Below are positions 575 through 59,106 of a stretch of 64,000 nucleotides of DNA, in pieces. Within the stretch, counting starts at the first letter, position 1. Each line of letters opens with the position of its first letter. The notes under the pieces were generated by a model. It made no database searches and was not told where the DNA came from. It saw only the letters and a list, made by a program, of their open reading frames with translations. Source of the stretch: Thermoproteota archaeon (GTDB lineage: Archaea; Thermoproteota; Thermoprotei_A; Sulfolobales; Ignisphaeraceae); assembly GCA_030550585.1 (NCBI GenBank), contig JAUQPB010000001.1, forward strand, positions 496,001 through 560,000. The letters are read 5' to 3'. A program made the translations under genes and the position numbers.

Positions 575-1819
575 TTGAGCTATAAAGTAAAGGATATGAG
601 TCTTGCTGAGAGGGGTAAAAAGCAGATTGAATGGGCCCGTATGCACATGCCTGTTTTAAGAATTATTGCAGATGAGTTTAGCAGAGAAAAGCCTTTAAAA
701 GGTATAAGAATTGCAGCTGTTTTGCATGTTACTAAGGAGACGGCTGTTCTAGTTGAGACATTGGTAGCTGGGGGTGCAGAGGTTTGGCTTGCTGCTAGCA
801 ATCCGCTCTCTACGCAAGACGATGTTGCAGCAGCGCTAGCTTCTGAGGGGGTTCATGTATATGCTTGGAGAGGTGAAACAGAGGAAGAATACTTCAATGC
901 AATAAAGACTATTGCTAGTGCAGAGCCGCAGATAGTCATTGATGACGGTGGAGATCTACATGCACATCTTCATAGCGCGGCCCAGGAAATTGCGAAGAAA
1001 GTGTTTGGAGGTACTGAAGAAACTACGACAGGGGTTCATAGGCTAAAGGCCATGGAGAGGCAGGGGATATTGAAGTACCCTGTTATAGCAGTTAACAATG
1101 CGCTAACAAAGTTCATGTTTGATAACAGGTATGGAACTGGTCAAAGTACAATAGATGGTATACTAAGAGCTACAAACATTCTCATAGCTGGTAAGATAGT
1201 TGTTGTTGCCGGCTATGGCTGGGTTGGAAGAGGTATTGCATGGAGGGCCAGAGGAATGGGGGCAAGGGTAATAGTAACAGAGGTCGATCCCATCAGGGCT
1301 CTAGAAGCTGTCATGGATGGGTTTGAGGTTATGAAAATGGATGAGGCAGCTGAAATAGGTGATGTATTTATAACGGCTACTGGAAACATAAATGTTATAA
1401 CGAAAGCTCATTTTGAAAAGATGAAGGATGGAGCGATACTGGCAAATGCAGGCCACTTTGATGTGGAGGTTAGTGTAAAGGACTTGGAGTCGATTGCTAT
1501 TTCAAAAAGAGAGATTAGGGATTGTGTAACAGAGTATGTGTTACCCAATGGGAAAAGGTTTTACCTTCTGGGGAGAGGGAGGCTCGTGAACCTAGTTTGC
1601 GCAGAGGGGCACTCAAGCGAGGTTATGGACATGAGCTTTGCGAACCAAGCATTGGCAGCTAGATACATAGTCGAGAATAGGGGGGTTTTAGAGAGGAAGG
1701 TCTATAACGTGCCACTAGAAATAGATAGGAGGGTAGCAGAGCTAAAGCTGAGATCCATGGGCATAGAAATAGATGTGTTAACAGATGAGCAGAGGAAATA
1801 TTTAGAAAGCTGGATATAG
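575..1819 (+). CDS. ahcY: Adenosylhomocysteinase (S-adenosyl-L-homocysteine hydrolase)
   Basis: Strong family signature: [64 protein letters not shown]. Confidence 0.97.
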
Positions 1820-1827
1820 TCTTAGAA

Positions 1828-2433
1828 TTATCGATTGAATTCCTTGAAATATAATCTGCCAAGCAGTGATGCGATCCTGTCTGCTACATGAAGAGGGTAT
1901 GGATAGAAATAGTATCTGCACAGTTTTTCAAGAATGGTCTCCACAAACTTCATTGGTAAGCCGATGGAGTGGTATCTCAAGTTTGTTTCCCCAATCTTTA
2001 CGACATTGGAGTGTGAATAGATATTCTCTATGATCGAAAATCTATATGTATAATCGGTAAAATGTTTCTTCAAGGCAAAACGAACTCTCTCTAGGTCAAG
2101 TGCATGTCTAAACATGGTTACCACTGGAATAGAATATATATTGTAAATTCTAAGTGGGTCGATGATATTGAACCCTGCATATGTTACACCATCCAGAAAT
2201 ATTGCATCGATCTCATATTTAGAGGTAGCATCTTCAACTATTTCTATGGCTTTTCGAGTTCCGTCTAGCGAATCTATCGTTATATAGTTTAGAAAGACAT
2301 CAACTATTTTATGATTGCATGTTACAGCACCAACTAGAAGTGTTTTTCTTTTTGGCTCTAACCTCTTATAGAGAACGTTGAAATACCCATCATCTATTCC
2401 CAGAAAGCAGTTGTGATACATATGGATCTTCAC
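1828..2433 (-). CDS. DUF99 family protein
   Basis: [11 protein letters not shown]-terminus, [16 protein letters not shown] and IPVVTMFRH motifs typical of DUF99. Overlaps the 3' end of cdc6. Confidence 0.8.
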
Positions 2434-3619
2434 TAAGCGCTTTTATTACAACATCTTCTGGGACTGCTAGGGATATAACCCTTGTTTTGCCATATCTCCC
2501 CCGGCTTATGACCCTAGCTGTTATTATGCCTGTCATATCTAGCTCACTTAGAATATCGCTAACCCTTCTCTGTGTAACGCTTTCAATCCCTATTTTTGTG
2601 CACAAGGACTTGTAATGGACGTACACCTCCCCCGTTGTCGTTTTTCCATTGCCAGCCTTCGTAAGGTTTAGAATTGCTAGCAAAACAAGCTTGCTATGCA
2701 AAGGCATAGTCGATATGACCTCGCCCGCTCTATCAACCTCTATTTCTCTTAGAGCTTTATACACATGTTCTGTCAAAACCTTCTCGCTCCCTTCTCTCTC
2801 AGCTATCTCTCCAGCAACTCTCAGTAGATCTAGTGCTCTTCTGGCATCTCCATGTTCTCTAGCAGCTAGTGCTGCACAGAGGCTAATAACAGGTTTGTCT
2901 ATAGCACCTTGTTTAAACGCTATTTTCGCACGTCTAGTGAGTATATCCTCCAACTGTACCGCATTGTAAGGTGGGAATACAAGCTCCACTTCGCCTAGGC
3001 TGCTTCTAACCCTTGGATCAATATCTTCAACAAGCTTCAAATCGTTTGTTATTCCAATTATGGCTATCTTCGAGTTGGCCAGTTCATCACTGCTTCTGGT
3101 TAATCTATATAGTATCTCATCACCACTTCTCTTTATCAAGAAATCAATTTCGTCGAGAACAGCGATCATTATAGATGACCTAGAATCCAAAACCTTTAGA
3201 AATCTTCTATATGCTTCTGCAGTAGATATTCCAGTAAATGGCAACTTCAATCCTATACATTCGGCAAGCTTGACCACAACCCTATATGTTGTATCATCTT
3301 GTCTAGTATTGACATAGCATGGAATGATGTCTACGCCAAGCTCGACGGACTTTCCATACAGTCTCTTCAAAACATATTTAGTCACAGCAGTTTTACCTGT
3401 GCCAGTCAACCCATAGATAAACACATTGCTAGGCTTAGAACCCCTTAGTGCCGGTGCAAGTATCGAACCCAGTTTAGCTATTTGCTCCTCTCTATGAGGA
3501 AGCTCATCAGGTATATACTCTGGTCTCAGAACATCTCTATTAACAAATACACTAGATCTAAGCGTATTCACAAAAATCTTGTCAAGCAAATCATTCACAG
3601 CTTCACTCATAACCCTCAA
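2390..3619 (-). CDS. cdc6: ORC1/Cdc6-type DNA replication initiator
   Basis: AAA+ Walker A ([10 protein letters not shown]), Walker B (AVLDEID), C-terminal winged helix. Confidence 0.95.
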
Positions 3620-3734
3620 TCACACTACACAAGCTTCACATAATAAAAAATAAATAATCTGTTAATATAATTAAATAGTTGAAAACAGCTTTTTAAGCTG
3701 AGTCATACAAATATCTGTGTTGATTAAATAGGTT

Positions 3735-3810
3735 GGGCCGGTAGCTCAGCTGGAAGAGCGCTCGGTTCGCACCCGAGAGGTCCCGGGTTCGAATCCCGGC
3801 CGGTCCACCA
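3735..3810 (+). tRNA. tRNA-Ala(CGC)
   Basis: Cloverleaf: acceptor GGGCCGG/CCGGTCC, anticodon arm CTCGG-TTCGCAC-CCGAG, T-arm CCGGG-TTCGAAT-CCCGG, encoded CCA. Confidence 0.95.
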
Positions 3811-3975
3811 AAACAATTCTTATCTTAGATTTTTGTAGCAGAGCTGGTTGCATTAAAACATGCTGAATAACTTTATTAGATCTTACATAGGGTAAAACTT
3901 TAGTCATAGAAATCTAAAAAGGAGTTTACAAAAAGTTGTTGATCTATAAAAAAGGATCTTGTTTTTATTATATCT

Positions 3976-6117
3976 TTATAAACCGAATAGTATTAGCGGT
4001 ATTATTACCGATGATGATACCGCCATCACTTTGATCATAATGTTTATTGCTGGTCCAGCAGCATCCTTTAATGGGTCTCCAACAGTATCTCCAACAACTG
4101 CTGCCTTATGCGTCTCCGTCCCCTTTCCTCCAAAGTTCCCTGCTTCTATGAATTTCTTTGCGTTGTCCCAAGTGTTTCCAACGTTTCCTTGGAATAGGCC
4201 GAGTAGTAGTCCAGAACCTATAGAACCGGTTAGCAACCCTCCGAGTATTGCCGCACCCTTCCATACATCACCGCTTGCAGGTCCTACTAAGGCTATGATT
4301 ATCGGCATTATTATTGCTAATAATCCTGGTGCTATCAACCTTCTCAAAGCATAGAATGTTACTATCTGTACCGCTCTTTCATAGTCTGGTCTCTCTTTCC
4401 ATTCTAGGATACCTGGCTTCTCCCTAAACTGTCTTCTAATCTCATCAACGAGCCTTCCAGCAGCTGCTGTAACAGCTTGTATAACCATTGCAACGAATAG
4501 AGCTACTGCTACGACACCTATTATTATCCCTCCTATGAAGTAGGCTCCATATTCTGGGTGCCCAGCATTAAATATGGTTTGCATGACCTTGTCTACTCCA
4601 AGATTACTTCTACTCGATAGTACGCTTGCAAAGCTGAAGAGCAATGCTAGTGCTGTTAGAGCTGCAGAGCCTATTGCATATCCCTTCGATATAGATTTCA
4701 TGGTGTTTCCAGCAGAGTCAAGCATGTCTGCAAGCGACCTTACATCTTCTTCATAGCCTGCTTGCTCAGCTAAGCCTGCTGTATTGTCGACTATTGGGCC
4801 GTAGGCATCAGCCGCGACAACTATTGGGGCTGTGGCAAGCATTCCCGTACCTGCTAGCGCAGCTGAGTATATTCCTGCCAACAGCTTTTCTGATGTGCTT
4901 AGCGTAGAGCCTATGGCATATGACCCTATGGCTGCCAACGCTATTGCGACGCTAGGTATGAATGTGCTGTAGAACCCCATGGATAGGCCACTTAGAATTG
5001 TTAGCGCTGGTCCGAACTGCGAGTTTTGGGCAACTATTTTGACTGGTCTGTACATTGGTGAGGTGAAGTAGTCTGAGGTGAATCCAACTATAGCACCAGC
5101 GATTAGCCCTAGCACCCCCACTATGAATGCTGGTGAAATAGATGGTGCTAAAGCATAGGTGATTATACCGTTTATCACAGCTGCGCCAATTATAGATAGA
5201 ATAGATGTTGTTGTCAATGTTCTTCCAGGTTGTTTGAATGGTGATATTGAGACGAATTGTGCTATCGCTATTGATGCTAGAAGAGCCGTAGCACTAAACA
5301 GAACTGGGTACGCCACTAAATCAAGGTTTCCAAGCACAGCAGCTATAGCCATTGGCGCTATCATGCCCTCTACATATGATTCGAATAGGTCTGCACCCAT
5401 TCCAGCACAGTCACCAACATTATCACCAACATTATCTGCAATAACACCTGGGTTCCTAGGATCATCTTCTGGTATCCCAACCTCAACCTTGCCAACAAGG
5501 TCTGCACCAACATCAGCAGCCTTTGTGTATATACCTCCGCCAACTCTAGCAAAGAGCGCAGCTGTGCTAGCACCAAAGGCATATCCTAGCAATATCTGTG
5601 TAACGTTTACAGGATCTGAAAACCCATTCAATGCTATGAAAAGCCCTGCTGTACCCAAAAGACCTATTCCACCAACTAGAAAACCTGTCACAGACCCGCC
5701 TCTAAATGCCAATGCTAGTGCATCTTTTAGACCCCTCCTAATAAGCATATTTAAAACTCTGATATTGCTGAGAACACCCATGAGCATACCGACAATGCTA
5801 ACCGTAGCAGAGCTCAGCCCTCCAAGGAAATACGCTACACCGGTCCATAGCACCAGACTACTGCCGGTAACCACTCCTATAACTATCAAAATTACTGACA
5901 CTATTGAAATTATGGAGAGTATTACAGTGTACTGAGCCTTTATATAGGCAATAGAAGCACTCTTTATATAGCCGTGTATCTGGGCAGCTCTTTTGCTTTT
6001 TTCATCGTCCTCCAAAATTTTAAGCCTTGTTATGTACACTATCAAACCGATGACATATAAAACACCTATTACTCCTGATATCAATCCAAGCCACATGCTC
6101 GTCTCAACTAGTGTCAT
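3976..6117 (-). CDS. hppA: Membrane-bound (H+-translocating) pyrophosphatase
   Basis: DVGADLVGKVEVGIPEDDPRNPGVIADNVGDNVGDCAGMGADLFES and DNAKKFIEAG...GDTVGDPLKDAAGPAINIMIK signatures; multiple TM segments. Confidence 0.97.
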   Translation of the reverse strand: MTLVETSMWLGLISGVIGVLYVIGLIVYITRLKILEDDEKSKRAAQIHGYIKSASIAYIKAQYTVILSIISIVSVILIVIGVVTGSSLVLWTGVAYFLGGLSSATVSIVGMLMGVLSNIRVLNMLIRRGLKDALALAFRGGSVTGFLVGGIGLLGTAGLFIALNGFSDPVNVTQILLGYAFGASTAALFARVGGGIYTKAADVGADLVGKVEVGIPEDDPRNPGVIADNVGDNVGDCAGMGADLFESYVEGMIAPMAIAAVLGNLDLVAYPVLFSATALLASIAIAQFVSISPFKQPGRTLTTTSILSIIGAAVINGIITYALAPSISPAFIVGVLGLIAGAIVGFTSDYFTSPMYRPVKIVAQNSQFGPALTILSGLSMGFYSTFIPSVAIALAAIGSYAIGSTLSTSEKLLAGIYSAALAGTGMLATAPIVVAADAYGPIVDNTAGLAEQAGYEEDVRSLADMLDSAGNTMKSISKGYAIGSAALTALALLFSFASVLSSRSNLGVDKVMQTIFNAGHPEYGAYFIGGIIIGVVAVALFVAMVIQAVTAAAGRLVDEIRRQFREKPGILEWKERPDYERAVQIVTFYALRRLIAPGLLAIIMPIIIALVGPASGDVWKGAAILGGLLTGSIGSGLLLGLFQGNVGNTWDNAKKFIEAGNFGGKGTETHKAAVVGDTVGDPLKDAAGPAINIMIKVMAVSSSVIIPLILFGL

Positions 6118-37392: not shown

Positions 37393-37779
37393 ATGTCGAA
37401 ACCATTTTACGTAAAATTTGAGGTTCCTCCAGACATAGCTGAAAAAGCATATCAGGCACTGAAAAAAGCAAGAGAGACAGGAGGGAAAATAAGAAAGGGA
37501 ACAAATGAAGTAACAAAAGGTGTTGAGAGAGGTCTATGCAAACTAGTGCTCATAGCCGAAGATGTTGACCCACCAGAGGTTGTCGCACACCTGCCTCTGC
37601 TATGTGAAGAAAAGAAAGTTCCATACCTTTATGTACCAAGCAAAAAGAGATTAGGAGAGGCGGCAGGCATAGAGGTTGCAGCAGCTTCAGCATGTATAGT
37701 GGAGCCTGGTGAGGCAAAGGCCGAGCTAGAAGAACTTGCGTCGAAGTACCAAGAGCTTAGAGCAAAAGCTGGTAAGTAG
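37393..37779 (+). CDS. rpl7ae: Ribosomal protein L7Ae
   Basis: [46 protein letters not shown]. Confidence 0.98.
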
Positions 37780-42738: not shown

Positions 42739-43302
42739 GTGGATAGAATTTTTGGTGAGGTCTATTTGTTTAGATTGTATAGACTGAGAGATATTGTAAG
42801 AATAGACCCATCAAAAATTAATAGGGCTATTGAAGAGGTGGCATTTGACGAGCTCAGAAAGAAGTACGAAGGGCTAAAAGATAAAAATCTTGGCATAGTT
42901 ATAGCAATAACAGATGTTAATGTAGATCCAATGGGCTATATACCTATAGGCGATGGAGCACCTTATCATAGAGTTGAATTCACTGTAGTTGCATATGTTC
43001 CTCTAGTTAGTGAGGTTGTTGAAGGGGAGGTTGCAACGGTTGGGAGAGGTGGTATAACAGTTTCTCTAGGTCCAATTGAGGGCTTTATACACATACAGCA
43101 AATAGCAGATGACGAAGTTTCATATGATGTTGCTAGAAACATTATTGTTTGCAAAAACACTAAAAGATTTGTTATGCAAGGAGATATAGTTAGAGCTAGA
43201 GTAACAAGCGTTTCTCTTGGAGCCGTTGGAAGACCGCCTAGAGTTACCATGACCATGCGTCAGCCGTATCTAGGCAAGCTTGAGTGGATTTCAAAGAAAT
43301 AG
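42739..43302 (+). CDS. rpoE1: RNA polymerase subunit E' (Rpo7)
   Basis: S1-domain GEVATVGRGGITVSLGPIEGFIHIQQI; DGAPYHRVEFTVVAYVP. Confidence 0.95.
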   Translation: MDRIFGEVYLFRLYRLRDIVRIDPSKINRAIEEVAFDELRKKYEGLKDKNLGIVIAITDVNVDPMGYIPIGDGAPYHRVEFTVVAYVPLVSEVVEGEVATVGRGGITVSLGPIEGFIHIQQIADDEVSYDVARNIIVCKNTKRFVMQGDIVRARVTSVSLGAVGRPPRVTMTMRQPYLGKLEWISKK

Positions 43303-43314
43303 TTTATATTTGAT

Positions 43315-43364
43315 ATGATGATCCTTGTAAGGGCTGACTAAAATGATGTTACCGGGGATACTGA
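43315..43364 (+). ncRNA. C/D-box sRNA (2'-O-methylation guide)
   Basis: Box C ATGATGA (43315-43321), 12-nt guide TCCTTGTAAGGG, box D' CTGA (43334-43337), 5-nt spacer, box C' ATGATGT (43343-43349), 11-nt guide TACCGGGGATA, box D CTGA (43361-43364). D' guide is complementary over 11 nt to the tRNA-Val(UAC) anticodon loop. Confidence 0.85.
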
Positions 43365-43368
43365 AGCA

Positions 43369-43764
43369 ATGGTCTGGATTAGTAAAAGAGAGATAGCCTA
43401 TTATATTATTCTAAGAAAAGTTTTTAACAACAAATCGTTTAATTTGGGCGAAGCATTAGATGTTCTTTCTCTATTTGGCTCCAAGAATATTGGAAGAAAA
43501 ACATTAAAAAAACTTGTCAAAAAAGGATTTCTTGAGAAGACCGGGGCCCTAGATTATAATATAGTTGAACTTGAAAAAGCTTTCGAAAAGCTTCTGCTAG
43601 GCTATATGATACAGAGACTCTATAGAAATTTAAAGTCAAGAGGATATAAAGTTGTAATTGATTTGAAAAACAGTTCTGTTATAGTTGAATGTGACCAAAG
43701 GCTGGAAAACATCATAGCAAACTTAAGTATTGTTGGCATAGATGTGAAGTGCAAGCAGAAATAG
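43369..43764 (+). CDS. Hypothetical winged-helix-like protein
   Basis: N-terminal FNLGEALDVLSLFGSKNIGRKTLKKLVKKGFLEKTG resembles wHTH; no firm family. Confidence 0.55.
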   Translation: MVWISKREIAYYIILRKVFNNKSFNLGEALDVLSLFGSKNIGRKTLKKLVKKGFLEKTGALDYNIVELEKAFEKLLLGYMIQRLYRNLKSRGYKVVIDLKNSSVIVECDQRLENIIANLSIVGIDVKCKQK

Positions 43765-59032: not shown

Positions 59033-59106
59033 TGGGCCCGCGGGGATTTGAACCCCGGACCTCCGCCTTGTAAGGGCGGCGTCCTACCAGACTAGACGAC
59101 GGGCCC
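59033..59106 (-). tRNA. tRNA-Val(TAC)
   Basis: Reverse complement acceptor GGGCCCG/CGGGCCC, anticodon arm CCGCC-CTTACAA-GGCGG, T-arm CGGGG-TTCAAAT-CCCCG; CCA not encoded. Confidence 0.94.

Follow-up and report, generated by a model that had tools for sequence, protein, structure and literature searches.

We propose that a short plus-strand element at positions 43315-43364 of the window (the whole 64,000-nt stretch of DNA analysed here) is a box C/D methylation guide sRNA, whose D' guide would direct 2'-O-methylation of U34 of tRNA-Val(UAC). The box geometry, the complementarity to this tRNA and its conservation make this reading highly probable, with the first anticodon base of tRNA-Val as the most likely methylation site. 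By analogy with archaeal C/D guides, we infer RNP assembly, methylation and processing of the sRNA. Within its archaeal family, the element also keeps close company with the gene for a conserved 131-aa protein (ORF131), and this association raises the question of whether the RNA has a second role in cis.

Layout of the C/D locus

The element contains box C, a guide, box D', a spacer, box C', a second guide and box D, in that order (Table 1). A preliminary description, made from the sequence alone, had proposed this layout, with guides of 12 and 11 nt and a 5-nt D'-C' spacer, and had placed it between rpoE' and a 131-aa ORF; on re-reading, the layout proved exact to the base, and the same neighbors flank the sRNA in all 11 genomes of the genus, the named relatives of which are Ignisphaera MAGs. 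The box order and the guides of about 10-12 nt are those of archaeal box C/D guide sRNAs, with AUGAUGU as the C' box. An Rfam search of the locus, in a collection whose sR and snoRNA families are guide-specific, gave no family at the cut-off (the best archaeal model, sR2, scored 16.1 bits against 42).

Table 1. Features of the sRNA locus, its predicted target and sibling guides (window positions unless a contig is named)
Feature	Position	Strand	Remarks
rpoE' (RNA polymerase subunit Rpo7)	42739-43302	+	immediately upstream; stop codon to box C, 12 nt
Box C, ATGATGA	43315-43321	+	[AG]TGATGA in all f1 copies, [AGT]TGATG[AT] in family f7
D' guide, TCCTTGTAAGGG, 12 nt	43322-43333	+	conserved ten, nt 43323-43332 (N+11 to N+2), pairing with tRNA-Val nt 31-40
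Box D', CTGA	43334-43337	+	sequence read
D'-C' spacer, CTAAA, 5 nt	43338-43342	+	sequence read
Box C', ATGATGT	43343-43349	+	final base deviates from RUGAUGA
D guide, TACCGGGGATA, 11 nt	43350-43360	+	target uncertain; best candidate 23S rRNA C875 (numbering of nearest relative, G009)
Box D, CTGA	43361-43364	+	4 nt upstream of ORF131 start codon
ORF131, conserved 131-aa protein	43369-43764	+	start codon just after box D
tRNA-Val(UAC) gene	59033-59106	-	tRNA gene call
Target, nt 30-40 of tRNA-Val(UAC)	59066-59076	-	predicted methylated residue U34 at 59072
Sibling guide, predicted for U34 of tRNA-Lys(UUU)	G000:C3:180368-180398 (own genome)		10 Watson-Crick pairs, N+2 to N+11
Sibling guide, predicted for U34 of tRNA-Arg(UCU)	G000:C3:231076-231111 (own genome)		10 Watson-Crick pairs, N+2 to N+11
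Sibling guide, predicted for U34 of tRNA-Leu(UAG)	G000:C7:233909-233940 (own genome)		10 Watson-Crick pairs, N+2 to N+11

Since the boxes are short, TGATG and CTGA words might fall into this arrangement by chance and yield no RNA product, but this is vanishingly improbable. The window contains one match to the C...D'...C' pattern, compared with a mean of 0.04 in shuffled sequence, and the C-guide-D'-spacer-C' pattern occurs 31 times in the 1.76-Mb genome compared with none for the reversed pattern; moreover, the retention of the element throughout the genus and in a second family already refutes a chance origin. The contrast between 31 and zero matches also indicates that the genome has a large C/D repertoire, of which this locus is one member.

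Inspection by eye for an sRNA promoter gave no TATA box that was both consistent and suitably spaced. Because just 12 nt lie between rpoE' and box C, the sRNA, with an expected length of roughly 50-60 nt, would probably be trimmed from a longer transcript running from rpoE' into ORF131. Elsewhere in the window, an L7Ae motif lies near position 37555.

Pairing of the two guides and its conservation

Guide nucleotides 43323-43333 can form a perfectly matched 11-bp duplex with nt 30-40 of tRNA-Val(UAC), in which U34 (window 59072) stands opposite N+5, the fifth nucleotide of the guide counted upstream from D'. The preliminary description had claimed exactly this match to the anticodon arm and had named U34 as the predicted residue by the fifth-nucleotide rule, and both the pairing, which has no mismatch, and the register were found to be correct. 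The scan against tRNAs and rRNA that it had in view likewise puts tRNA-Val(UAC) first, as the top match of the D' guide when 42 tRNA sequences and the rRNA of relatives are compared. Relatives had to stand in for the source genome here, as 5000 bases of its rRNA operon region read N (L033 positions 1002-6001), which makes a scan of its own 16S and most of its 23S rRNA impossible. The other valine tRNAs do not fit the guide: the CAC isoacceptor is mismatched at nt 34 itself, and GAC carries both G34 and G37.

The anticodon arm of tRNA-Val(UAC) reads CCGCC-CUUACAA-GGCGG. It counts against the reading that the mature tRNA has nt 30-31 and 39-40 paired in the stem, so that the guide must open this arm. 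We envisage a duplex, 10 bp or longer, between the D' guide and nt 31-40 that would open the anticodon arm and place U34 opposite the fifth nucleotide upstream of D', leading to 2'-O-methylation (Um34). The likely benefit would be a stiffer wobble nucleotide that pairs more precisely at high temperature.

Positions N+2 to N+11 pair unbroken with the genome's own tRNA-Val(UAC) in every one of the 11 genus genomes (three of which have a single G.U), whereas N+1 and N+12 differ from genome to genome; this agrees with the ten-nucleotide recognition limit announced in the title of Yang 2016 (cited in PMC6313347). Beyond the genus, relatives of the sRNA are present in four more genera of the same family (f1), in five genomes altogether. 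The exact guide, sought in 214 genomes of the order, turned up in nine members of the genus and in ten genomes of a second family (f7), its reversed control matched nowhere, and a relaxed pattern applied to 398 genomes of the phylum added nothing outside these two families, so that at this stringency the sRNA looks lineage-limited. Exact-guide matches in the bacteria Nitrospirae, Ruminococcus, Paenochrobactrum, Methylomonas and Clostridia were dismissed as chance, as the flanks that were read have no C'/D half. Together, the box geometry, the genus-wide duplex and the same-guide sRNA in f7 support the original reading of the locus as a C/D sRNA.

Variation within the duplex gives a more mixed picture. 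Guide position N+8 is C instead of T in four genomes (G004, G010, G016 and G017), and nt 37 of tRNA-Val is G in all four, a rule already formulated when the G016 and G017 tRNAs were examined. Overall, C at N+8 occurs in 4 of 12 genomes with G37 and in none of 8 with A37 (one-sided P of about 0.10, the genomes being related); on its own, this co-change is weak. The expectation of U31 in the tRNA-Val of G016 failed, with the A at guide N+2 facing C31 in a mismatch, and the guide of G142 is mispaired at nt 38.

The D guide behaves differently from the D' guide. Counting the adjacent T at 43349, it forms 12 bp, including 2 G.U, with 23S rRNA around C875 of G009, a pairing that could mean that the working guide is the D guide, aimed at ribosomal RNA, and that the D' match to tRNA-Val is incidental. 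This is extremely unlikely, given how strongly the D guide differs among members of the genus, with no one target kept, whereas the D' core is almost invariant. A common rRNA target for the D guide was sought and rejected, with both 23S C875 and 16S position ~1305 (relative's numbering) fitting only partly in the source genome (G000), G009 and G003; most relatives do not retain the C875 pairing. The guide that we expect to matter thus remains the D' guide, directed at tRNA-Val.

Several relatives carry a D guide that can pair with the D-loop of tRNA-Val, the tRNA addressed by the D' guide. With N+5 on C17, the fit spans 12 bp with one G.U in G142, 9 bp with one G.U in G150 and 9 bp in G016, and with N+5 on C16 it spans 8 bp in G148; these fits are equalled by 0 to 15 of 1000 shuffled guides. 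In G148, the guide changes from CCAGG to CCGGG alongside a change from CCTGG to CCCGG in the tRNA. Both guides thus fit a single tRNA in these four relatives but not in the source genome. These D-loop fits hint that both guides of the sRNA may originally have served one tRNA, a double function that the genus may since have lost.

Association with ORF131

ORF131 has homologs in 92 of the 214 genomes of the order and is thus a real protein, for which searches gave no Pfam or NCBIfam family at cut-off (with zero NCBIfam matches) and no convincing PDB relative. The link of the sRNA with this gene, like the match of the relatives' second guide to the D-loop, goes beyond the preliminary description. 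A homolog was detected in 16 f1 genomes, and in every one of them the end of the sRNA lies 0-14 nt from the ORF131 start codon that follows it. This holds even in five genomes (G001, G012, G015, G016 and G017) where ORF131 and rpoE' lie on different contigs and the sRNA is found with ORF131; we accordingly rejected rpoE' as the conserved partner, since other genera keep the sRNA beside ORF131 and not beside rpoE'. In these same five genomes, the stretch downstream of rpoE' looks like a short zinc-ribbon protein, taken by eye as Spt4. It should be noted that this order, rpoE' and then a Spt4-like gene, is seen in other f1 genera, and that the sRNA and ORF131 occupy that place in the genus of the window. 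Outside f1, the stretches read around ORF131 homologs contain no strict C/D motif.

This close spacing, kept where rpoE' lies on another contig, would suit an element that is mainly a cis-acting leader of ORF131, in which translation would be controlled, or a leaderless mRNA made, by L7Ae bound to its k-turns or by processing at box D. Published work offers some precedent: a RIP-Seq study suggests, by its title, translational regulation by L7Ae in Archaea (PMC5539422), and C/D genes that overlap the 5' end of an ORF, which make up 7% of archaeal C/D genes, depress expression of the downstream gene (Tripp 2017, as summarized in PMC7994747). We nevertheless consider a primarily regulatory element very unlikely, and just as unlikely that the tRNA complementarity is secondary, because nothing in a pure leader calls for ten guide nucleotides that match tRNA-Val throughout the genus, and because f7 carries an sRNA with the same guide in genomes where no ORF131 homolog was detected. 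The guide and leader roles can coexist, and a guide for tRNA-Val remains our preferred reading of the element.

As the published 5' overlaps are a small fraction of C/D genes and depress the downstream gene, the persistent pairing of this guide with an intact ORF131 is unusual. A more speculative proposal, which we regard as doubtful, is that, in this family, the guide for tRNA-Val belongs with ORF131 in a fixed two-part unit: maturation of the guide or assembly of its RNP would set the start of the ORF131 message, coupling ORF131 expression to guide production, and the ancestral sRNA would have directed methylation of both C17 and U34 of tRNA-Val. Whatever its basis, the lasting association makes this locus a natural place to ask if one leader can be common to a guide RNA and an mRNA.

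Guides for the wobble position: predicted in this genome, known in other archaea

The tRNA-Val guide has company in its own genome. Among 60 guides from 30 C/D candidates, four form at least nine Watson-Crick pairs with a tRNA with N+5 exactly on nt 34, compared with 0.05 nt-34 matches per set of shuffled guides and none of 500 such sets reaching four. The four targets, Val(UAC), Lys(UUU), Arg(UCU) and Leu(UAG), are all wobble uridines, and the pairing runs from N+2 to N+11. As one Ignisphaera genome has four or more guides that would address wobble uridines, U34 ribose methylation becomes a testable general strategy in these hyperthermophiles. Five further C/D candidates of the genome (L049, L056, L057, L059 and L074) have guides that fit conserved D-arm or T-arm stretches common to several tRNAs.

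C/D guides for the wobble position, including U34, are already described (PMC7668247, PMC7994747), so the valine sRNA adds to a known kind. As a C/D target, U34 of tRNA-Val was not found in the literature searched, which left out the main Pyrobaculum survey (Lui 2018); the novelty of this exact target is for that reason not established. What the sRNA contributes is a further predicted target for archaeal C/D guides, U34 of tRNA-Val(UAC).

A close parallel is in Sulfolobus acidocaldarius, where a C/D guide for U34 of tRNA-Gln(UUG) is reported (PMC7668247, citing Ziesche 2004 and the Lowe lab database) and where Um34 or s2Um34 has been observed in Gln(UUG) and Leu(UAG) (PMC7668247). Both guides address the wobble uridine of one tRNA, but the tRNA and the guide are different, and methylation has been observed in the Gln case and is predicted in the Val case. 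In Pyrococcus, C/D sRNAs target nt 34 of tRNA-Leu(CAA), Leu(UAA), Met and Trp, and are thus also aimed at the first anticodon position; these are other tRNAs, however, and the Trp guide resides in a tRNA intron while the Val guide lies between protein genes (PMC7994747). The 5'-overlapping C/D genes of Tripp 2017 resemble our locus in having a start codon just 3' of box D, but such overlaps can lead to downstream pseudogenes, whereas ORF131 is intact and its pairing with the sRNA extends across five genera (PMC7994747). Finally, in the tRNA-targeting C/D families of Pyrobaculum (Lui 2018, as cited in PMC7994747), one guide per sRNA matches a tRNA around position 34, as here, and the other guide is reported to be targetless; in several of the relatives examined here, by contrast, the second guide matches tRNA-Val too, in its D-loop.
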